Both the position numbers and the translations under genes were made by a program. This document shows, piece by piece, positions 1,931 through 25,082 of a stretch of 29,139 bases of DNA. The first letter of the stretch is position 1; each line of letters opens with the position of its first letter. The stretch covers positions 1 through 29,139 of IMG/VR virus record IMGVR_UViG_3300021425_000125. One strand, given 5' to 3'. The stretch comes from a virus. A model generated the notes under the pieces. It was not told where the DNA came from. It saw only the letters and a program-made list of their open reading frames with translations, and did no database searches.

Positions 1931-2138
1931 AGAGTAACTCTAAACTTCGCGCCATACCCGGCGTTCGTTTTATGTAGCCGCGCCGCTCAAGCTGCACCAG
2001 CATCGAATGCGTCGGCGTTCGGGTGCGGCCAGTCAGGCCAGCCAGCTCACCGATTGATGGCGTGTAATCATTTAGCTCTTGGAACTCTTTGATTACTTGC
2101 AGCAGCTCGGCCTGCTTGGGTGTAAGACCGGCCTGCAT
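1929..2138 (-). CDS. LexA-type winged-helix DNA-binding protein without protease domain
   Basis: All 69 residues match the layout of the LexA N-terminal domain (PF01726). LTPKQAELLQVIKEF is followed by YTPSIGELAGLTG as first helix and turn, then THSMLVQLERRGYIKR as recognition helix and wing, and MARSLELL at the end, like the SRGIRLL end of the LexA domain. The self-cleaving S24 protease half (about 130 residues) is absent, so RecA could not inactivate it by autolysis. It is the last gene of the minus operon and its ATG overlaps the nuclease stop (TAATG). GGGAGC at 2146-2151 is the ribosome site. Likely roles are phage repressor or competitor of host LexA at SOS boxes; both are inference. Confidence 0.8.
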   Translation of the reverse strand: MQAGLTPKQAELLQVIKEFQELNDYTPSIGELAGLTGRTRTPTHSMLVQLERRGYIKRTPGMARSLELL

Positions 2139-3094
2139 TACGATAGCTCCCTCAAGGTAAGCGTCTTCTGGCGATACGTCTCAGCAGGCTTAGCCGGGCT
2201 AACCTTTTCAGGTGATGCCTTGCGGGTGCGCATCGGCCACTTCACGCGATACAGTGTGTTGCCAACAGTGCCCAGCGCGCTTTCGTGGCTGCCCAGAAAC
2301 TCCTTCAGCCCAGCTTCTGCCTCGTCAATGCGTTGCTCTGCAATCCGCTTGTCCCTTTTGGCGTCAACCAAATCAGATAGGTAATCCAGCGCCTCGCTCT
2401 CGTCCAACTCCAGCTCAGGCACACCATCGTCGACCGACCCGTATGCAGTGTTGCCGTCGTCACTAGAGAAGATGGGGTACCAGTCGTAATTTTTTTTACG
2501 ATTCTCAAAATCAAGAATGGCACCAGAAATCATTTCCTGCGTGTCGTGCTGCACCTCATAAACAAAGATGCGCAGCTCGTTACCACCATACAGCACGCAC
2601 ACGGCACCCCATTGCGCGTTCGTACACATCATCTGAGCTTGGAGCTGTAGTGGCCCACGATACAGAGCTGGCGTTGTCTCAGGCTTGCTGCCCGTGTTCT
2701 TCGCCTCCAGCACGCCGCGTCCGGTGATGTCAATCTCATCGGACGTGACGCAGTAGATGCCCTTACTGGTATCAGTTTTGATGGTGCCACTGCCCGTGCC
2801 TGCGCCGTCCAGCGAGCAGGCCAGTGGCAGCTTCTCGTGAAAGAATGCCTCATCGTAATCGAATTTTGTGTCTGACAAGCCAAGCCGTTCTGCCGCCATA
2901 GCCAAGATGGCAGGTTCCAATGCGTCGCCCCACGTCATCGCCTCGTTCTGCTTGAAGTCAGCGCGGGGCTTTCCCTCCTCCGCGTCGATGCACTTCTTCA
3001 GAACATCGTTCGGGGTTTCATACGGGCTGGCGTTCAGCAGTGCGGGCACGCGTGATGCCGTAATAATATTATCAGGTGTTACTTTACCGACCAT
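2138..3094 (-). CDS. YqaJ-like viral recombinase / exonuclease
   Basis: This is a 318-residue protein. The start ATG at 3094 is fixed by AAAGGA at 3102-3107; an earlier in-frame ATG at 3142 would overlap the upstream small gene almost fully. SASRVPALL-like residues 11-20 (ITASRVPALL) and WGDALEPAIL with E60 open the fold. D96 in CSLDG, E130 and K132 in LEAK, and Q150/Q152/Q154 in LQLQAQM complete the PD-(D/E)XK core of YqaJ/lambda-exonuclease proteins (PF09588). Members resect duplex ends to 3' single strands for annealing recombination. The C-terminal 90 residues are charged and partly coiled coil. A single-strand-binding protein is encoded at 5468, a usual partner. A dedicated annealase is not seen. 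Confidence 0.88.
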   Translation of the reverse strand: MVGKVTPDNIITASRVPALLNASPYETPNDVLKKCIDAEEGKPRADFKQNEAMTWGDALEPAILAMAAERLGLSDTKFDYDEAFFHEKLPLACSLDGAGTGSGTIKTDTSKGIYCVTSDEIDITGRGVLEAKNTGSKPETTPALYRGPLQLQAQMMCTNAQWGAVCVLYGGNELRIFVYEVQHDTQEMISGAILDFENRKKNYDWYPIFSSDDGNTAYGSVDDGVPELELDESEALDYLSDLVDAKRDKRIAEQRIDEAEAGLKEFLGSHESALGTVGNTLYRVKWPMRTRKASPEKVSPAKPAETYRQKTLTLRELS

Positions 3095-3095
3095 T

Positions 3096-3230
3096 TTAAT
3101 TTCCTTTCGCGTCGATGATGGCAAGTTCAATGCCAGGGGCAAACAGCAAGGCGATGTAGCCTATGCCAAAAATACAAAGCAGTGCAATTAACTCTACAAT
3201 CCACTCTTTCCAATCGTCGTCGTCACGCAT
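3096..3230 (-). CDS. 44-residue single-TM protein
   Basis: ATG 3230 follows the strong ribosome site GGAGGT at 3236-3241 with good spacing and overlaps the last eight bases of the recombinase gene. The product begins with the acidic MRDDDDWKEW, has one hydrophobic stretch at about residues 11-32, and ends in DAKGN. It stops one base before the nuclease start, so it sits in the operon as a real gene. Function is unknown; an inner-membrane anchor with the acidic end in the cytoplasm is possible. Confidence 0.7.
   Translation of the reverse strand: MRDDDDWKEWIVELIALLCIFGIGYIALLFAPGIELAIIDAKGN
3102..3107 (-). promoter_or_regulatory. ribosome binding site fixing the YqaJ start
   Basis: AAAGGA on the minus strand lies seven bases before the ATG at 3094 and within the end of the 44-residue gene. 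It is the reason for preferring this start over the upstream in-frame ATG. Confidence 0.7.
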
Positions 3231-3864
3231 GAGATACCTCCATAATGTTTTTGACAGACTGAGCGTACCAGCTCTTGCCGGTAGCCGTTTGGATGCCGAG
3301 CTTATTCAGCTCGTCAGCGATGGCGCGGAGCGACGCACCAGCGTCGCGCAGCGCATTGATTACGGGCAGTGCCTTGCCAGCAATGGCTTTAGTCTTTGCC
3401 CGGCGAACCGCACCGGCGGCAAGACCGCCAGCGCGTGGGTTAGGAGAGCCTAGCTTTATTCCGCGCTGTTTGGCAGCAGCCAGTGCTGCCTTTGTGCGCT
3501 GCGAGATTTGCTCACGCTCGTGCTGTGCCACCACAGCTCGCACGCCAAACTCCAGCGTGCCAGCGTTCGGCATATCAGCAGCGATGATGTCGACCCCGGC
3601 CTTGCGCAACGTCAGCAGGAATGCAGCGTCACGTGACAGCCGGTCAATCTTAGCAATCAAGATGGACGCGCCCAGCTCACGGCACAGCTCCAACGCTGCG
3701 GCGAGCTGAGGGCGGTCATCGTTCTTGCCGCTCTCGACTTCAGTGAATGCGTGCAGGATGTCATCAGCGTATGGCGCGACCAGCGCCTGTTGTGCCTCCA
3801 GCCCAAGACCTGATTGGCCTTGAGCCTTCGTCGACACGCGATAGTATGCGATGTACTTAGTCAT
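3223..3864 (-). CDS. small serine recombinase (resolvase/invertase family)
   Basis: The 213-residue protein starts at ATG 3864, eight bases after GGAGGG (3873-3878). The N-terminal resolvase domain (PF00239) begins YIAYYRVST with catalytic S11. DRLSRD supplies R75 and R78, and QHEREQISQRTKAAL is the start of helix E. The C-terminal 50 residues (PVINALRDAGASLRAIADELNKLGIQTATGKSWYAQSVKNIM) form the DNA-binding helix-turn-helix. The length is typical of small resolvases and invertases, not of the roughly 500-residue large serine integrases. It could resolve genome multimers, invert a segment or integrate. No paired crossover sites were recognised. A longer frame back to 4017 is excluded because it lies inside the preceding gene. 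Confidence 0.9.
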   Translation of the reverse strand: MTKYIAYYRVSTKAQGQSGLGLEAQQALVAPYADDILHAFTEVESGKNDDRPQLAAALELCRELGASILIAKIDRLSRDAAFLLTLRKAGVDIIAADMPNAGTLEFGVRAVVAQHEREQISQRTKAALAAAKQRGIKLGSPNPRAGGLAAGAVRRAKTKAIAGKALPVINALRDAGASLRAIADELNKLGIQTATGKSWYAQSVKNIMEVSHA

Positions 3865-4180
3865 TGTTGCCGCCCTCCAAGATCGTGATTTTTTTATCAA
3901 GCTGCTCAATCTCAACATAAAGACCGTCGATAAACTCTTCATTGCCAAAACCATTAATGCGTGTTTCGCCAATTTCGCTGTCGTAATATGTGCCGCACTG
4001 CTCACGCGCGTCTTCAATCATACCTTCCAAGCGCGCCTTCTCGTCAGCAGCCTTGTCAATAATTTGAGACGCTGCGTCTGTGATAGCGTCGTGCCACACC
4101 ATCAATTCCTCTTCAGAAATGTCTAAGCCTTCGCGCTCGTGCTCTTCTTTAATTATCTTTATAAGGTGTTGGTCAGTCAT
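3857..4180 (-). CDS. 107-residue acidic helical protein of unknown function
   Basis: This is the first gene of the minus operon, with AGGAGG at 4189-4194 eight bases before ATG 4180. The product is acidic and mostly helical: an N-terminal part with EEHEREGLDISEEELMVWHDAI, a middle helix AASQIIDKAADEKARLEGMIEDA, and a C-terminal coiled-coil-like segment (FIDGLYVEIEQLDKKITILEGG). A single Cys lies near residue 62. I do not recognise the family. Being first after the promoter and eight bases coupled to the recombinase, it could be a regulator, an anti-host protein or a recombinase accessory factor. Confidence 0.65.
   Translation of the reverse strand: MTDQHLIKIIKEEHEREGLDISEEELMVWHDAITDAASQIIDKAADEKARLEGMIEDAREQCGTYYDSEIGETRINGFGNEEFIDGLYVEIEQLDKKITILEGGNND
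3873..3878 (-). promoter_or_regulatory. ribosome binding site fixing the recombinase start
   Basis: GGAGGG on the minus strand, spaced eight bases from the ATG at 3864. It selects the start that coincides with the beginning of the conserved YRVST region. Confidence 0.8.
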
Positions 4181-4188
4181 CGAATAAA

Positions 4189-4194
4189 CCTCCT
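4189..4194 (-). promoter_or_regulatory. ribosome binding site of the first minus-operon gene
   Basis: AGGAGG, a full match to the anti-16S core, eight bases before ATG 4180. Confidence 0.8.
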
Positions 4195-4214
4195 GTTGTT
4201 CTATCGATTTCCTA

Positions 4215-4243
4215 TATATAATCTCGTTTCAATCAGATTGCAA
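4215..4243 (-). promoter_or_regulatory. sigma-70-type promoter of the minus operon
   Basis: Read on the minus strand, TTGCAA (4243-4238) is separated by exactly 17 bases from TATATA (4220-4215). This is close to the TTGACA-17-TATAAT consensus. Transcription would begin near 4208, some 28 bases before the start codon at 4180. It is the only good candidate for driving the five minus-strand genes. Confidence 0.7.
4227..4243. promoter_or_regulatory. 17-bp near-perfect palindrome, probable operator
   Basis: TTTCAATCAGATTGCAA is symmetric about the central A at 4235 with only one mismatched pair (T4229 with C4241). It overlaps the -35 of the minus promoter and the -35 of the plus candidate. Dyad symmetry of this length across both promoters is what a dimeric repressor would bind. 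The adjacent ribbon-helix-helix gene and the LexA-type gene are the obvious candidates; which one binds cannot be told from sequence. Confidence 0.6.
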
Positions 4244-4255
4244 TACCCCTAAGAT
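4227..4255 (+). promoter_or_regulatory. weaker divergent promoter candidate for the plus operon
   Basis: TTTCAA (4227-4232), a 17-base spacer and TAAGAT (4250-4255) are placed correctly for the ribbon-helix-helix gene at 4281, but each box matches only half to two thirds of consensus. A promoter is needed somewhere here because the two operons diverge. A weak one that depends on activation or is repressed would suit a switch. Confidence 0.4.
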
Positions 4256-4280
4256 ATAAAAATGATAGCGAGGAGAAAGC

Positions 4281-4478
4281 ATGTCTGAATTGAAACCAAC
4301 ACTGCTTCGGCTGCGCACTAGCACCGTCGACGCGCTCAAGCTGGAATTGAAGCAAAGCAGTCATCGTTCGATGGCATCACTGGCTGATGAGATTTTGTCC
4401 AAAGAACTGGAGCGCCGGTTGGAAAACCAGAGCGCGCAGTTGGACAAGCTAGTCAATGCCGCGCGCAATGTTGTTTAG
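4281..4478 (+). CDS. Arc-like ribbon-helix-helix DNA-binding protein
   Basis: A 65-residue protein with GAGGAG about six bases before ATG 4281. The segment PTLLRLRTSTVDALKLELKQSSHRSMASLADEILSKELERRL has the layout of a ribbon-helix-helix fold: a short beta-strand with alternating hydrophobic and basic residues (LLRLR), helix A, a turn at SHRS, and helix B with the MASLADEIL pattern seen in Arc-type repressors. Residues 45-65 may extend a dimer helix. Such proteins bind operators as pairs of dimers. Its gene lies 38 bases from the palindrome at 4227-4243, so autoregulation of the divergent region is a strong inference. It would be the first gene of the early plus operon. Confidence 0.8.
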   Translation: MSELKPTLLRLRTSTVDALKLELKQSSHRSMASLADEILSKELERRLENQSAQLDKLVNAARNVV

Positions 4479-4612: not shown

Positions 4613-5029
4613 ATGTCGGGACGCAAAAGCAGAAATAAAGGCGCAGCATTTGAGCGCTGGGTAGCTAACCAGCTCACAGAGGATTTGGGTTTGGAAGAAC
4701 CGCTGCGCCGCAACCTGTCGCAGTATCAGGCAGACAGCCTGCCGGACTTGGTGTGCCCACCATTTAAGATTGAATGCAAAGCCTACGCCGTCAATGGTGC
4801 AGGCACGTGGTTCCAAGATGATTGGTGGCAGCAAGTCGTCGACGCTACAGGCGATGACCTGATGCCGTGCCTTATTTTTAAGTATGACCGGCACCGGCCA
4901 CGTGTTGTGCTGCCCCTCGTGGCTATCAATGAAGAGTGGGGCGAGACGAGCAGCGCGCTGTATCCGTTCGCATCTGACTGGGACTACGCAGTCGCGGTGA
5001 TCAGGGAGTGGGTCGATGCCCAAGTATGA
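4613..5029 (+). CDS. PD-(D/E)XK nuclease, Holliday junction resolvase-like
   Basis: The 138-residue protein opens with SRNKGAAFERWVANQL (E14), continues LPDLVCPP (D45), and then KIECKAY with E54 and K56. This spacing is that of the Hjc/RecU-like resolvase branch, including the basic N-terminus and the RNKGAAFER start typical of archaeal and phage resolvases. Trp-rich FQDDWWQQVVDATG in the middle corresponds to the helix that follows the catalytic strand. Resolving branched replication or recombination intermediates is the likely job. The gene overlaps the next nuclease by 14 bases, so the two are probably made together. The GGGTGTAGAG ribosome site is modest. Confidence 0.82.
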   Translation: MSGRKSRNKGAAFERWVANQLTEDLGLEEPLRRNLSQYQADSLPDLVCPPFKIECKAYAVNGAGTWFQDDWWQQVVDATGDDLMPCLIFKYDRHRPRVVLPLVAINEEWGETSSALYPFASDWDYAVAVIREWVDAQV

Positions 5030-5432
5030 GACGGAACAAAGTCTGCGCGGCGAGAGCGCCGTCGCGAAGCTCATTGAAGAGCGCCGCGACGTGTCGCTCG
5101 AAAAGCTAAACCCGGTCTACCGTCTCGACTATGCTGCATTCCGCAAAGGTGAGGTAACCAGCTTCATAGAAATAAAGTGCCGCACGTTTGAGCGCGACAA
5201 GTACGAGACGACGCTCATTAATGCGCACAAGATTATGTCTGCCAATGATATTGCGCAGGCGTTCGGACGGCCAGCTTTCCTCGTGGTGAGCTGGACGGAC
5301 TGGACTGGCTTCATCCCGTTTGCTGGGTTGGGTCAGTTTAGGATTGGTATGGGTGGCAGAACCGATAGAGGTGACCCAAAGGATTGGGACATCTGCTGCT
5401 TTATACCAGTGAGCGAGTTCAAAGAACTCTAG
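5016..5432 (+). CDS. second adjacent PD-(D/E)XK-type nuclease
   Basis: A 138-residue protein overlapping the resolvase-like gene. E13 in RGESAVAKLIEE, D38 in VYRLDYAAF, and E52/K54 in SFIEIKCRTF give the helix, then D, then ExK pattern of the fold. Following residues TTLINAHKIMSANDIAQAFGRPAFLVVSW match the helix-strand that usually follows, as seen in phage nucleases with restriction-like folds. No clear subfamily is recognised. Its coupling to the previous gene suggests either complementary nucleases or a heteromeric pair. Catalytic residues look intact, so it is not obviously a dead paralogue. Confidence 0.65.
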   Translation: MPKYETEQSLRGESAVAKLIEERRDVSLEKLNPVYRLDYAAFRKGEVTSFIEIKCRTFERDKYETTLINAHKIMSANDIAQAFGRPAFLVVSWTDWTGFIPFAGLGQFRIGMGGRTDRGDPKDWDICCFIPVSEFKEL

Positions 5433-5467
5433 GTTACATGAATAGCGTTTATGAAAGGATATGAATT

Positions 5468-6079
5468 ATGGCGTTAGGAATGAATTTTGAAGGCAAATCG
5501 GCAGGGGACATCCTGCCAATCGTCAAGTATGACGCAAAGGGCGGCGACCTCATCGCAGTCAATCGCGTGCAGGGCGAAGACGGTCAATGGACTAAGAGCG
5601 AAGTCGAGGTTGAAATGCCGACCAACTTCGTGATGGATATGGAAAACATCGAAGTCGGTTGGTTGTCGTTCGCAAGCGGTGCGCCTGACTTTGTGATGGC
5701 GAAGGTTGGTGAACCGATGCCGGGTAAGCCAAGTGACGACCACAAGCAGGCATTCCGTCTGCGTATTGCGTCGACTGACTTGGGCCTGCGTGAGTTTAGC
5801 CACAGTGCTAAGACTGTGCTGCGTTGTATGGATGACCTGCACAGCAAGTATCTGGCAGAGAAAGGTCAGCACGCTGGCCTCATGCCGGTAGTTTCAATCG
5901 AGGGCACTGAAACAATTAAGATACAGTCGCCAAATGGCGAGCTTCGGTTTAAGGCACCGAAGTGGAGCATTGTAAGTTGGGTTGATAAACCTGACTTCTT
6001 TGACGCTGCAAGCGCGCCGGACACTACTCCTGAACCGGTTGCCGCACAAGATAGTGGTGATGAAGCACCGCTGTTTTAG
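5468..6079 (+). CDS. single-stranded-DNA-binding-like protein
   Basis: The 203-residue product starts at ATG 5468 behind AAAGGA. The core has alternating beta-strand character: GDILPIVKYDAKGGDLIAVNRV, EVEVEMPTNFVMDMENIEVGWLSF, and later LMPVVSIEGTETIKI. It ends in a Pro/Ala-rich linker and the acidic tail DSGDEAPLF. Tails with acidic residues and a terminal Phe are the protein-docking element of SSB and T7 gp2.5. A conserved region with GLREFSHSAKTVLRCMDDLHSKY lies in the middle. Location directly before the primase-helicase and in the same direction as two nucleases supports a replication/recombination SSB. The OB fold itself is inferred, not proven. Confidence 0.65.
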   Translation: MALGMNFEGKSAGDILPIVKYDAKGGDLIAVNRVQGEDGQWTKSEVEVEMPTNFVMDMENIEVGWLSFASGAPDFVMAKVGEPMPGKPSDDHKQAFRLRIASTDLGLREFSHSAKTVLRCMDDLHSKYLAEKGQHAGLMPVVSIEGTETIKIQSPNGELRFKAPKWSIVSWVDKPDFFDAASAPDTTPEPVAAQDSGDEAPLF

Positions 6080-6088
6080 GTAGCGTCC

Positions 6089-6143
6089 GTTGGGGCGTGT
6101 CACGCTTCCCTCCCCCGCAGAGGCACGCCCCAACATCATTTTT
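6089..6143 (+). terminator. long-stem hairpin, possible attenuator or terminator
   Basis: A perfect 11-bp G+C-rich stem pairs 6089-6099 with 6124-6134 around a 24-base loop. The sequence ATCATTTTT follows. The loop is large for an efficient intrinsic terminator, so partial termination or mRNA end protection of the abundant SSB-like transcript is as likely. The primase-helicase ribosome site starts at about 6145. Confidence 0.45.
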
Positions 6144-6157
6144 CAGGAGTAAACGAA

Positions 6158-7972
6158 ATGACAAACAATATCGGCGCTCACATTGAGACAGTCGCAAAGC
6201 ATTATTGGGGCGAGCCAAAGGAACGGCGCGGCCATACGCTGCGCTGGGGCAATCGTGGGTCGAAGGAAGTCGATTTGCGCAAAGGCACGTGGTTCGATTT
6301 TGAAAACAACATAGGCGGCGGCGTAGTCGACCTCGTTCGTCAGAATGAGGGCGCGCAGCTCGCCGGTATCCCCGACGTGCTAGAACGCAAGTTCGGTATA
6401 CCAAAGCAAACGCAGAAGGCCATCCAGCCTGCGCAGTATCTCAGCAAGGTGTATAACTACGTCGACGCGCAAGGTGAGCTGCGCTATCAGGTCATGCGCT
6501 TTGAACCAAAGACGTTCAGGCAGCGCAGACCAGACGGCGATGGCGGTTGGATTTACAATATGCAGGATGTTGAGGCGCTGCCCTACAATCTGCAAGGCAT
6601 CCTGTCGCGCCCGGACAAAACGATTTTCGTTGTCGAGGGCGAGAAGTGCGCAGACAAACTCATCGAGCTGGGTGCCGTCGCCACGACATCACACGGCGGG
6701 GCGGGTAAATGGAAAGCCGAGCTAAACAAATTCTTTGAAGGTCGACGCGTGGTTATTCTACCCGACGAAGATGATGCGGGGCAAAAGCACGCGCAGGTGG
6801 TCAGCAGTCATCTCATTGACGTGGCAAAGGACATCAAGGTTGTTGACCTTCCGGGCCTCAGCGAGAAGCAGGACGTGTATGACTGGTTGCAGAACGGGCA
6901 CACGCCAGAGGAGCTGCGTGATATTGTCAGTAACGCCGATGTTATAACGGATGTTATAACGTCCGACGGCGAGGTGTTGGAGCCAGTCGACGAGCCTGAC
7001 GTGTATCCGACCTATAGCCTGACGTACCTACGCAATATGCCGCCGGTCAAATGGCTGGTGGAGGGCTTGCTTACAGAACACGGCTTCGGCGTCATCTATG
7101 GCGAACCCGGCGCGGGTAAATCGTTTTTAGGTATCGATATAGCTTTATCTGTTGCGTATGGGCGTGCTTGGCACGGCAACGCAGTTAAGCAGGGTGCGGT
7201 GCTGTATATTGCAGGCGAGGGCGTAGGCGGTCTTGGCAAGCGTGTTAAGGCGTGGCAGCAGCACGTCGGTATCGAAGCCGACGCGCCTATGTATGTGCTA
7301 CCTATGGCGGTGCATATGACCGAGCAAGGGGACGTAGAGAAGCTCCTACGCACCATCGACAGCCTGGGGCAGGAGTTTACCCTGTGTATTGTCGACACAG
7401 TCGCTAGAAGCCTTCTGGGCGACGAGAACAGCAGCTCTGATATGGGCATGTTTGTAAGCGCCTGTAATGCCGTACAGCGGCACATAAACGGTGCTGTGGT
7501 CGGCGTACACCACGCAGGCAAGGACGCGTCACGTGGTATGCGTGGCTCAACTGCGCTACTTGGCGCTGTCGACGCGGCATTGCGTGTCAAAAAGGACGAG
7601 GATAGCTTCACCCTGCAATGCGAGAAGCAGAAAGATGCAGAGCCATTCGAGGATATGGTCTTTGATATGGTGCCGATTGCGATGCTGGGCGACAGCTCTA
7701 TTGTTATTCAGCGCAGCGAGCCAGAGCAGCGTAGCGATGCGCGGCGGGCAAAATTAACCAACGATCAGCAAATTGCACTGGATGCACTACACAATGCGCT
7801 TGCTCAGCTCAAATCAAATAAGTGTGACATAGATAGATGGAAACTAGAACATCGTGTGAAAACTCCCGACCTCACAGCAGGCAAGCGAAGGGATGCCAGA
7901 GCGGCCCTACAGAGCAAACGTGTGATTTTCATCGACGACGGTATTGTCATGTTAAACAAGGACTTAGGATGA
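6158..7972 (+). CDS. TOPRIM primase - RecA-like helicase fusion
   Basis: The 604-residue protein has CAGGAG upstream of ATG 6158. Residues 1-80 resemble the degenerate N-terminal part of phage primases (GTWFDFENNIGGGVVDLV) but lack the Cys zinc ligands. Residues 155-245 form a TOPRIM domain with VVEGEKCAD (E160) and LPDEDDAG (D203-D206). Residues 285-510 are a RecA/RepA-like AAA_25 ATPase: Walker A GEPGAGKS (315-322), Walker B LCIVDTV (D413), and VGVHHAGKD with sensor-like H451/H452. A basic C-terminal region follows. This fits priming and unwinding at the phage fork, as T7 gp4 does in another arrangement. Catalytic primase residues beyond TOPRIM are not identified. Confidence 0.85.
   Translation: MTNNIGAHIETVAKHYWGEPKERRGHTLRWGNRGSKEVDLRKGTWFDFENNIGGGVVDLVRQNEGAQLAGIPDVLERKFGIPKQTQKAIQPAQYLSKVYNYVDAQGELRYQVMRFEPKTFRQRRPDGDGGWIYNMQDVEALPYNLQGILSRPDKTIFVVEGEKCADKLIELGAVATTSHGGAGKWKAELNKFFEGRRVVILPDEDDAGQKHAQVVSSHLIDVAKDIKVVDLPGLSEKQDVYDWLQNGHTPEELRDIVSNADVITDVITSDGEVLEPVDEPDVYPTYSLTYLRNMPPVKWLVEGLLTEHGFGVIYGEPGAGKSFLGIDIALSVAYGRAWHGNAVKQGAVLYIAGEGVGGLGKRVKAWQQHVGIEADAPMYVLPMAVHMTEQGDVEKLLRTIDSLGQEFTLCIVDTVARSLLGDENSSSDMGMFVSACNAVQRHINGAVVGVHHAGKDASRGMRGSTALLGAVDAALRVKKDEDSFTLQCEKQKDAEPFEDMVFDMVPIAMLGDSSIVIQRSEPEQRSDARRAKLTNDQQIALDALHNALAQLKSNKCDIDRWKLEHRVKTPDLTAGKRRDARAALQSKRVIFIDDGIVMLNKDLG
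6938..6961 (+). repeat. tandem 12-bp repeat with GTTATAAC palindromes
   Basis: GATGTTATAACG occurs twice back to back (6938-6949 and 6950-6961). Each unit holds the 8-bp palindrome GTTATAAC. It lies inside the primase-helicase gene, in the linker between TOPRIM and ATPase, where it encodes the repeated DVIT. Confidence 0.75.
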
Positions 7973-22458: not shown

Positions 22459-25082
22459 TGAGTAGCTTGAAGAACGAGTTTATGAATACCCACGACCTGT
22501 ACTCCACCGGGCAGGAGATGCAGATGGTGCGTGACGAGACTGGTGCGCTGCGCGCTCAGCTTGTGCCGCCTCCCCCACCTCCCGTAGCCACGGCCACGCC
22601 AGAAGGCGAAATGCAGTTTGGTACTGTTGGGGAGGCTGTTAAAGATTTGCCGCGCGCTATGGCTGGTGCTGCGCCCGGCTTGGTTACTGGTGGCGTGCGT
22701 GGTATTGCTGAAGCCGCTGCTCTTGTCGTCAGTGCAATCCCCGGCGCTTACGCAGCCTACAAAGCCGGTGACGGCGAAGGCTTGCAATCGTATCTAAATG
22801 TATTAGAGGAACACAGCAATATGTATGGCGGCGGCAGGGTCAAAGCCCTTGCAGACAGCGCGCTGGACATGATGGGTGTAAGCGAAGAAGACAAAGAGCA
22901 ATTTAATCTGGCCGCTGATGTGGGTGAGATATATGGTGTAGGCGAGGGTCTTGTTAAGGCACCAGTTATTGCAACACGCGTAGCGCGCGATGTCATGCGC
23001 GGACAGCGTGGTGCGGCTAGTGAGCTGGGCGCTATTGGCCCAGAGATACAGGCACAAATCGACCCGCGCAAAACCATAGCTATGCAGCCGCGTGAGGTAA
23101 TCGAAGGGCTTGATGACGAGACGCGTGGCATCATTAGGGATTTGGCTACGGAAAAGCGCGCGTCTGAAACTGTAGCGCCGGGTCTTGATGATACTCAGAT
23201 TGTAACGGGCGATGAGTTGCTTCGTACGCTTCAGAAGGCTCAAAAAAAAATTCCGTCTCGCAAACAAGATGAGCTGGGCTTCTACAGCCGCGCGCAAGAG
23301 TTTATCGACAATCTACAGCAAGAGAAGCTGACCGGGCCGCAGCTCAAGGGGCAGATGCTTAATGCTGGTGTCAAGGCCGACGAGCTGAAGTGGACGGGCC
23401 TCGATGAGTTCCTAGAGGCCAACCCGAAGCTGACCAAGCAAGAGGCTATGGACTTTATTGACCAGAACAAGGTCAAGCTGGAAGAGATTACGTATGAGGG
23501 TGGTACGCTAAATCCTGATACATACGAAAATTTTAGCAATGCAGGGGTCATAGATGATTATGACGAAATAAATTTTCAGCGTGAACGAATAGACGATGAA
23601 ATCAACTCTGGCGATGACGATTACTTAGAGTTAGCTCTTGAGAACAGGGGATACGATGTAACGTCTGGTGTTGCCGCGTACAAAGAGTTGATGCAGGCTA
23701 CAGGTGGTCGCTTCTTAAACGTAGAACCAGAGGTGCTGGCACCTATACAAGCCAAGCACCCTGACGTAGATGTTAAGAATGTCGGCTGGGAAGTTGATGC
23801 TGAGCTTACTGAAATTGCCAGAGAGAATTATTTTAGTAACCCGTATTACGAGGTAGATGGCGAGGGTGTTCTTGAGGATTATCGCATCGTCGGCAATGAC
23901 GACACGGGCTACTATGTCACCTATCAGAACCAAGCCGTCGATGACATAACCGATGTTTACTCACTTAACGAGGCACAGGTGCAGGTGCAGCAAGACGCTA
24001 TGGAGCGCGGCCTCACTACTGGCGCAGGTGACACACAATATTCCGAATACACCCAAGAGGGCGCGGAGAACTACCGCGAGGTACTGCTGACTAACCCCGG
24101 CTATAAGGGTGACCCGTCGTTCGAGTTAAACGAGACGCAGCGTGAGCGCTTGAAGGAGCTGAAGGAAAAAGTAAACGCTGAGATGAAGCGCCGTACCCAA
24201 TCTGGAGAGGCTCCAATTTACGGGCCTCAAGATGCTCTTAGTTCTAAGGAGATGACGGACTACGAAGCCCTTAACTGGCAAGACCGGCAAGTCGGTATGC
24301 CGCCTCGCTCACCACACTGGCAAGAGAATGATGTCGTCGCGCACGCTCGCCTGAGTGACCGCACGGTTATGGGTGGCGAACGAATTGATGTTGAGGGCGG
24401 CAAGCAACGCATACCTAAAGCACTTTACATCGAAGAGCTGCAAAGCGACTGGGCGCAGATTGGCCGTCGTCGCGGCTTTGGCGCGCAAGAGGTTGAATTT
24501 TCAGAGCCAATTCACAAAGGAAAAGACGATAAAGGCCGAGACACTTGGGTTGTAAATTCTAAAGATGCAGACGGCCTTGAGCGGCCACACAAATTTTTGG
24601 GCGGTGCGTTTGACTTCCCCACCAAAGAGGCGGCCCTTGAGGCGATTGAACGAGAGAAAAAAATACGTCCTAAAAGTCTTGGCAAAGTGCAAGAAGGCCC
24701 ACTGGTCGGCAAGACCGACAAGTGGACTGAGATGTCTATGCGTCGTCTAATCCGCAAAGCCGCTGATGAGGGCTACGACTATATTGCGTGGACACCGGGC
24801 GACGTGCAGTTTGACCGTTGGAACGAAGAAGGTCTTGAGACGTATTACAACAACGTGCTGCCAAAGGCTACGGGCAACGTCGCCAAGAAGCTGGACAAAG
24901 AAGCTAAGGTCAAACCTATTGAAGTCAGCATTGACGGTGAGCCGCAGAAGACACTAGCCTTGCCTATTACTGATAAATTGAAGACAATGGCAAAAGAAGG
25001 CCAACCGCTGTTTGCAGTACCTGCTGCCGTCGGTGTTGGCGCTGCACTAAAACCGAAAGAGGAAACAGATGGCAATCTCTAA
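22458..25082 (+). CDS. large internal virion protein with polyvalent-protein-type domain
   Basis: The 874-residue protein has a Pro-rich patch (residues 36-42), a hydrophobic Ala/Gly segment (about 63-110), helical middle regions, and an acidic stretch (about 350-530). The final 260 residues carry blocks PHWQENDVVAHARLSDRT, ALYIEELQSDWAQIGRRRGFG, KWTEMSMRRLIRKAADEGYDYIAWTPGDVQFDRW and YYNNVLPKATGNVAKKL. These recur in phage polyvalent proteins and virion proteins (large polyvalent-protein-associated domains). It overlaps its neighbour by 14 bases. Co-ejection into the host is likely; the enzymatic role of the domain is unknown. An A9 run lies at 23242-23250. Confidence 0.72.
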   Translation: MSSLKNEFMNTHDLYSTGQEMQMVRDETGALRAQLVPPPPPPVATATPEGEMQFGTVGEAVKDLPRAMAGAAPGLVTGGVRGIAEAAALVVSAIPGAYAAYKAGDGEGLQSYLNVLEEHSNMYGGGRVKALADSALDMMGVSEEDKEQFNLAADVGEIYGVGEGLVKAPVIATRVARDVMRGQRGAASELGAIGPEIQAQIDPRKTIAMQPREVIEGLDDETRGIIRDLATEKRASETVAPGLDDTQIVTGDELLRTLQKAQKKIPSRKQDELGFYSRAQEFIDNLQQEKLTGPQLKGQMLNAGVKADELKWTGLDEFLEANPKLTKQEAMDFIDQNKVKLEEITYEGGTLNPDTYENFSNAGVIDDYDEINFQRERIDDEINSGDDDYLELALENRGYDVTSGVAAYKELMQATGGRFLNVEPEVLAPIQAKHPDVDVKNVGWEVDAELTEIARENYFSNPYYEVDGEGVLEDYRIVGNDDTGYYVTYQNQAVDDITDVYSLNEAQVQVQQDAMERGLTTGAGDTQYSEYTQEGAENYREVLLTNPGYKGDPSFELNETQRERLKELKEKVNAEMKRRTQSGEAPIYGPQDALSSKEMTDYEALNWQDRQVGMPPRSPHWQENDVVAHARLSDRTVMGGERIDVEGGKQRIPKALYIEELQSDWAQIGRRRGFGAQEVEFSEPIHKGKDDKGRDTWVVNSKDADGLERPHKFLGGAFDFPTKEAALEAIEREKKIRPKSLGKVQEGPLVGKTDKWTEMSMRRLIRKAADEGYDYIAWTPGDVQFDRWNEEGLETYYNNVLPKATGNVAKKLDKEAKVKPIEVSIDGEPQKTLALPITDKLKTMAKEGQPLFAVPAAVGVGAALKPKEETDGNL

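Follow-up and report, generated by a model that had tools for sequence, protein, structure and literature searches.

Positions 4181 to 4280 of the window (the whole stretch of viral DNA analyzed here, 29,139 nucleotides of IMG/VR record IMGVR_UViG_3300021425_000125) form a compact early divergent control region, which lies between a recombination operon and a replication operon in a family of uncultured aquatic podovirus-like phages. Within this region, 11-bp direct repeats at 4198 to 4219, 4220 to 4241, and 4253 to 4269, which the original prediction had missed, are on sequence grounds better operator candidates than the 17-bp palindrome on which that prediction centered. Divergent repressor switches are well known; the present one appears to combine a family-specific ribbon-helix-helix (RHH) protein with a LexA domain that lacks the damage sensor and to rely on 11-bp direct repeats in place of a palindrome. 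The control region has been conserved in a large number of uncultured aquatic phages and offers precise, inexpensive targets for binding tests; how a minimal LexA domain reads DNA could be learned from the variation in repeats and recognition helix that exists in nature.

The primase, RHH, recombinase, and endonuclease proteins served as queries to gather relatives of the region. The viral loci retrieved number well over 100, and many represent overlapping fetches of the same contigs; the divergent gene arrangement is kept in dozens of related viral contigs. The syntenic order on one strand is an accessory open reading frame (ORF), the recombinase (in most loci), a YqaJ exonuclease, and a LexA-like protein; on the other strand, it is the RHH protein, one or more PDDEXK proteins, a 203-amino-acid (aa) protein, and a primase-helicase. 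The presence of both regulator genes, RHH and LexA-like, is conserved. The window DNA gave no match among 50,697 named phage records. A primase search of 84,980 genomes retrieved many distant relatives and a single close one, locus L171, on a contig in an Opitutae MAG. This locus is an independent ortholog whose primase is 89% identical to that of the window; its presence in an Opitutae MAG may be either a hint at the host or a binning error.

The minus-strand operon contains the three genes that the original prediction had named, each with a Pfam match: a serine recombinase of 214 aa (3223 to 3867; PF00239 [Resolvase], 6e-26), a YqaJ-type recombination exonuclease (2138 to 3142; PF09588, 1e-10; PHROG 434, 1.4e-32), and, as the last gene, a 69-aa protein comprising only a LexA DNA-binding domain (1929 to 2138; PF01726, 8.4e-12). 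The last of these scores 45.1 bits against PF01726 (cut-off, 23.7), which identifies it as an N-terminal LexA winged helix, and its structural model (pLDDT 89.9) matches the LexA DNA-binding domain, with a TM score of 0.90 to the LexA-DNA complex 3jso. The C-terminal self-cleaving peptidase/dimerization domain is absent, the protein ending at 69 aa. In nearly every relative locus with room for it, a LexA-like gene is found 3′ of YqaJ; the exception, L049/L166, has the room but not the gene. The first ORF of the minus operon (3857 to 4180, minus strand, 107 aa) occupies a variable accessory slot, where almost every relative carries a different small ORF; the preceding promoter and the genes that follow are conserved.

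The replication operon begins on the plus strand with a 65-aa protein of putative Arc-like RHH type (4281 to 4478), followed by two PDDEXK nucleases, the 203-aa protein, and an AAA_25 primase-helicase (4613 to 7972). The earlier description of the first protein as an Arc-like regulator stands in part: it is favored by weak fold matches dominated by RHH proteins and by weak PHROG matches in the family, but the protein has no Pfam match (RHH families included) or PHROG match of its own. Its monomer model, of middling confidence (mean pLDDT 74.9), contains two helices, with the strand absent, and matches that are individually weak (Foldseek E values of at least 1; VIA Z scores up to 5.8) fall mostly on RHH proteins, including Arc, CopG, and ParD. 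PHROG 3431 (Arc-like repressor) was weakly matched by 5 of 18 family members (best E value, 0.018). An RHH profile gave no real match to PDB sequences, and searches with the protein returned no match in the 50,697 named phage records and none in the 84,980 genomes. The KPTLLRLR strand and the HRSMASLADEIL segment are conserved among 18 aligned relatives, and this strand and the first helices are nearly invariant across the family.

Upon reading of the sequence, both of the predicted promoters were found where the original prediction had placed them. The recombination-operon promoter (4215 to 4243, minus strand) consists of a −35 box TTGCAA (4243 to 4238), a 17-bp spacer, and a −10 box TATATA (4220 to 4215), with transcription expected to start near 4208. 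Nearly all of ~50 distinct relatives keep this promoter (TATATA, a 17-bp spacer, and a −35 box of the TTGCAA/TTGTAA type), and such family-wide conservation supports it; its geometry is the better established of the two. The probable promoter of the RHH gene and replication operon (4227 to 4255, plus strand) combines a −35 box TTTCAA (4227 to 4232), a 17-bp spacer, and a −10 box TAAGAT (4250 to 4255), and it crosses the −35 box of the minus promoter. Its position matches that of TTGATA-17-TAATAT in the sister group L108; support for it comes from close relatives and is less clear in others. A generic promoter scan listed neither promoter. As the crossing point of the two promoters is at the −35 boxes, simultaneous use of both by RNA polymerase is probably impossible.

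The direct repeats are distributed over both promoters. The left array consists of two 11-bp units, GTTCTATCGAT and TTCCTATATAT (4198 to 4219), which cover the minus −10 box and start site. The middle pair, AATCTCGTTTC and AATCAGATTGC (4220 to 4241), lies within the −10/−35 spacer and has the family form ATATCA-N5-GATATC. The right pair (4253 to 4269), GATATA (4253) and GATAGC (4264), is likewise spaced by 11 bp and covers the plus −10 box and start site. In the window itself, the repeats are degenerate; the window alone gives a z score of 4.0 at lag 11 (P = 0.0003). Among all 77-bp stretches in the 29 kb, the intergenic region shares first place for lag-11 signal. Periodicity was further measured in a sample of 16 sequence clusters with <75% identity in the left segment. 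The whole region upstream of the RHH gene gave z scores of 10.5 at lag 11 and 4.0 at lag 22; lags 22, 33, 44, and 55 carried a weak in-phase signal, and the lag-11 value was 10.2 when promoter anchoring was dropped. The controls carried no lag-11 signal (z scores of −2.0 to 0.6 upstream of five other genes; mean of −0.6 for random 95-mers). Taken part by part in the 16 clusters, the lag-11 z score was 7.0 to 7.9 on the left, 4.7 in the middle, and 3.4 on the right. Lag-11 identity in the left segment was 0.45, compared to 0.28 in shuffles, with a second peak at lag 22 (z score of 3.3).

These repeats fall into two sequence compartments. In the middle and right parts, GATA/TATC is found 51 times versus 15.9 (standard deviation, 3.5) and GATATC, GATAGC, and similar hexamers 18 times versus 0.97, with no enrichment of either on the left; these counts are descriptive rather than an independent test, the motif classes having been picked by eye and then counted in the same sequences. 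The period-11 result is independent of the chosen classes. The left part contains GTnC-N7-GTnC in some clades (e.g., GTTC-N7-GTCC in L105; L107 has the similar TTTC-N7-GTTC) and TCAA-N6-TCAA in others, both patterns being confined to that part. Elsewhere in the window, GTnC-N7-GTnC occurs 12 times versus 13.1 expected, so that this pattern by itself is uninformative. In the L142/L148 clade, an inverted repeat (in L148, perfect over 11 bp: ATGTACTATAG ... CTATAGTACAT) flanks both crossed promoters, which indicates that a left-array unit is also present, in inverted form, on the right. The right segment of L114, the commonest clade, contains ATAGCA, ATATCA, and ATATCA at 11-bp spacing, running into the RHH ATG, an arrangement that suggests tight self-control.

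We propose a two-repressor early switch, with the LexA-like protein on the left array and the RHH protein on the GATA-type sites, and regard the case for this reading as evenly balanced. Repeats spaced by 11 bp, or one helix turn, would align several small DNA-binding proteins on one face of the DNA. The LexA-like protein would most likely occupy the left array, over the −10 box and start of the recombination operon, and so repress its own operon. The RHH protein would most likely bind GATA-type sites both in the middle part and over the start of its own transcript; it would thereby repress the promoter from which it is expressed and compete at the opposing one. The two repressors together would time or balance the expression of recombination and replication genes. 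The decision or timing switch of the original prediction is thereby retained in its conserved divergent operons and its plausible two regulators, but not in its use of the palindrome.

The LexA-like protein is favored for the left array because its recognition-helix residue tracks the array type and because the LexA box shares the 11-bp period. At the helix position that we aligned by eye to Asn41 of Escherichia coli LexA, a DNA-contacting residue (PMC3091678), Thr is present in all 11 loci of the GTnC/TTCTA type, and Gln, Pro, or Ser is present in the 8 others (TCAAC-type and further loci), while the KPTLLRLR strand of the RHH protein changes hardly at all. The alphaproteobacterial LexA box, GTTC-N7-GTTC, has an 11-bp period (PMC3091678). 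A LexA DNA-binding domain devoid of its C-terminal dimerization domain may, however, bind only weakly. The left-array type also tracks residue 4 of the RHH protein (Thr versus Ile or Leu) almost equally well, with one exception, L111, and clade history confounds both protein-array associations. Mantel (distance-matrix) tests were applied to assign the arrays and were set aside, as both proteins correlate with them and are not separable. RHH proteins, moreover, are able to bind tandem direct repeats, as ParR of plasmid R1 does on its 11-bp repeats (PMC9426499). In view of the residue 4 link, the inseparable Mantel results, and this use of direct repeats by RHH proteins, the assignment of each protein to an array is inferred from the sequences, and binding would presumably amount to repression.

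It is possible, though we consider it doubtful, that the RHH protein alone binds every 11-bp repeat, coating the intergenic region and silencing both promoters, with the LexA-like protein acting elsewhere. The 11-bp periodicity of the entire region, with its weak in-phase signal at the longer lags, would fit such a coat, and RHH centromere-binding proteins provide the precedent, as with ParR of plasmid R1, which binds 11-bp direct repeats on either side of a promoter; a literature search found no paper that describes operators of 11-bp direct repeats for a phage RHH protein. The left sequences nevertheless differ from those of the middle and right, despite the near invariance of the RHH strand, and the link between RHH residue 4 and left-array type, which would also favor this explanation, is broken by L111.

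For the two-repressor switch, a bolder form can be envisaged, which we put forward tentatively and judge unlikely as a whole. The two miniature proteins, RHH and a sensorless LexA domain, which are unrelated, would assemble on the same face of the DNA at an 11-bp pitch, forming a helically phased platform of ~100 bp that acts as an SOS-blind switch, with half-site and recognition helix covarying between clades. Were this the case, the DNA-binding part of LexA would have been reused without its cleavage domain.

Binding of the left array by the LexA protein of the host, which would render the recombination operon SOS-inducible, is improbable. Some clades do carry GTTC-N7-GTCC or GTTC-N7-GTAC, close to the alphaproteobacterial GTTC-N7-GTTC (which may not be the box of the host), but the TCAAC repeats of other clades are not LexA boxes, and these phages encode a LexA DNA-binding domain of their own.

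There is very little to recommend the proposal, made in the original prediction, that the 17-bp palindrome is itself the operator of the RHH protein. The imperfect dyad TTTCAATCAGATTGCAA (4227 to 4243; arms TTTCAATC-A-GATTGCAA) is indeed present, with 7 of 8 arm pairs matched. It overlaps the −35 boxes of both promoters, which themselves supply its outer hexamers (TTTCAA and TTGCAA); since diverging, crossed −35 boxes automatically form an inverted repeat, much of the symmetry requires no operator. Dyads with a 1-bp spacer and at least 7/8 pairs number 13 in the whole window, compared to 12.1 in shuffles; for the AT-rich 100-bp region, such a dyad appears in 6.6% of shuffles, or in 32% if spacers of 0 to 8 bp are allowed. 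The exact dyad is found only in the window and in near-identical contigs and is missing beside orthologous RHH genes in other contigs, an outcome that the original prediction had itself named as evidence against the idea. With the position fixed by reference to the minus promoter, a score of 7/8 is reached only within the window's own clade. The L108 group scores 6/8; L017/L106, whose RHH protein is 97% identical, and L171 (17-mer TTTTAATCAGTTTGCAA, by our count), whose RHH protein is 84.6% identical, both score 5/8; L107 scores 4/8, and in the other relatives the score is that of chance or close to it. The search for further copies in the window yielded one match with 3 mismatches, at 22782, which is within chance. 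On the basis of its chance-level score and its loss in relatives, including close ones, the palindrome was rejected as a shared operator.

Tn3 has its res site between divergent genes, and a recombinase gene is likewise part of the divergent operons here, but it is highly unlikely that the repeats serve the neighboring serine recombinase as a res-like recombination site, since they persist in L142, L145, L150, and L159, where the fetched stretch contains no recombinase match, and are direct 11-bp repeats rather than paired inverted 12-bp subsites.

The proposed two-repressor switch shares individual features with several known systems. As with Arc of phage P22 (Arc/Mnt), a small RHH-like protein is encoded beside early phage promoters, and the model matches include Arc. 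In contrast to P22, the candidate sites are direct 11-bp repeats instead of one palindrome, the protein sequence is too distant for a Pfam match, and the partner is a LexA-type winged helix. Opposing operons that encode two small regulators around a shared promoter region are also a feature of lambda CI/Cro. In the Thermus Lalka phages, a LexA-like gene faces another regulator, so that two small regulators are opposed as they are here (PMC11437467). Unlike in the lambda and Lalka switches, the LexA-like gene here ends the recombination operon, and a role in lysogeny would be hypothetical. ParR/parC of plasmid R1 combines an RHH protein with 11-bp direct repeats that lie on either side of a promoter (PMC9426499, PMC5016525); here, the gene of the putative RHH protein lies beside repeats of the same period, to which binding is presumed, but which are degenerate and of two sequence types. 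No motor protein (ParM/ParA) was detected when ten early proteins of this record, which may be an incomplete genome, were compared with Pfam and PHROGs. With LexA and the alphaproteobacterial SOS box, the system has in common the fold of the DNA-binding domain, the 11-bp direct-repeat spacing of the left array, and, in some clades, similar half-sites (PMC3091678); it differs in its lack of the C-terminal peptidase/dimerization domain and in the TCAAC repeats of other clades. Methylophilales phage MEP301 also has a recombinase gene next to a YqaJ gene, and its RusA, SSB, and terminase genes lie on the opposite strand; two stretches of this phage were searched, and neither contained a match to the RHH protein or the LexA-like protein.

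Distant clades carry the dyads ACCA-N3-TGGT and GATATCAC-N-GTGATATC. In one such clade (L057, L061, L063, and L088), ACCA-N3-TGGT or AACCACT-N10-AGTGGTT surrounds the minus −35 box, in place of the GATATC sites. A different, distant RHH-like protein (PIFVRIRPETL...) is encoded in L065 to L083, near a strong palindrome (CGATATCAC-T-GTGATATCG) and beside a recombinase-YqaJ operon.
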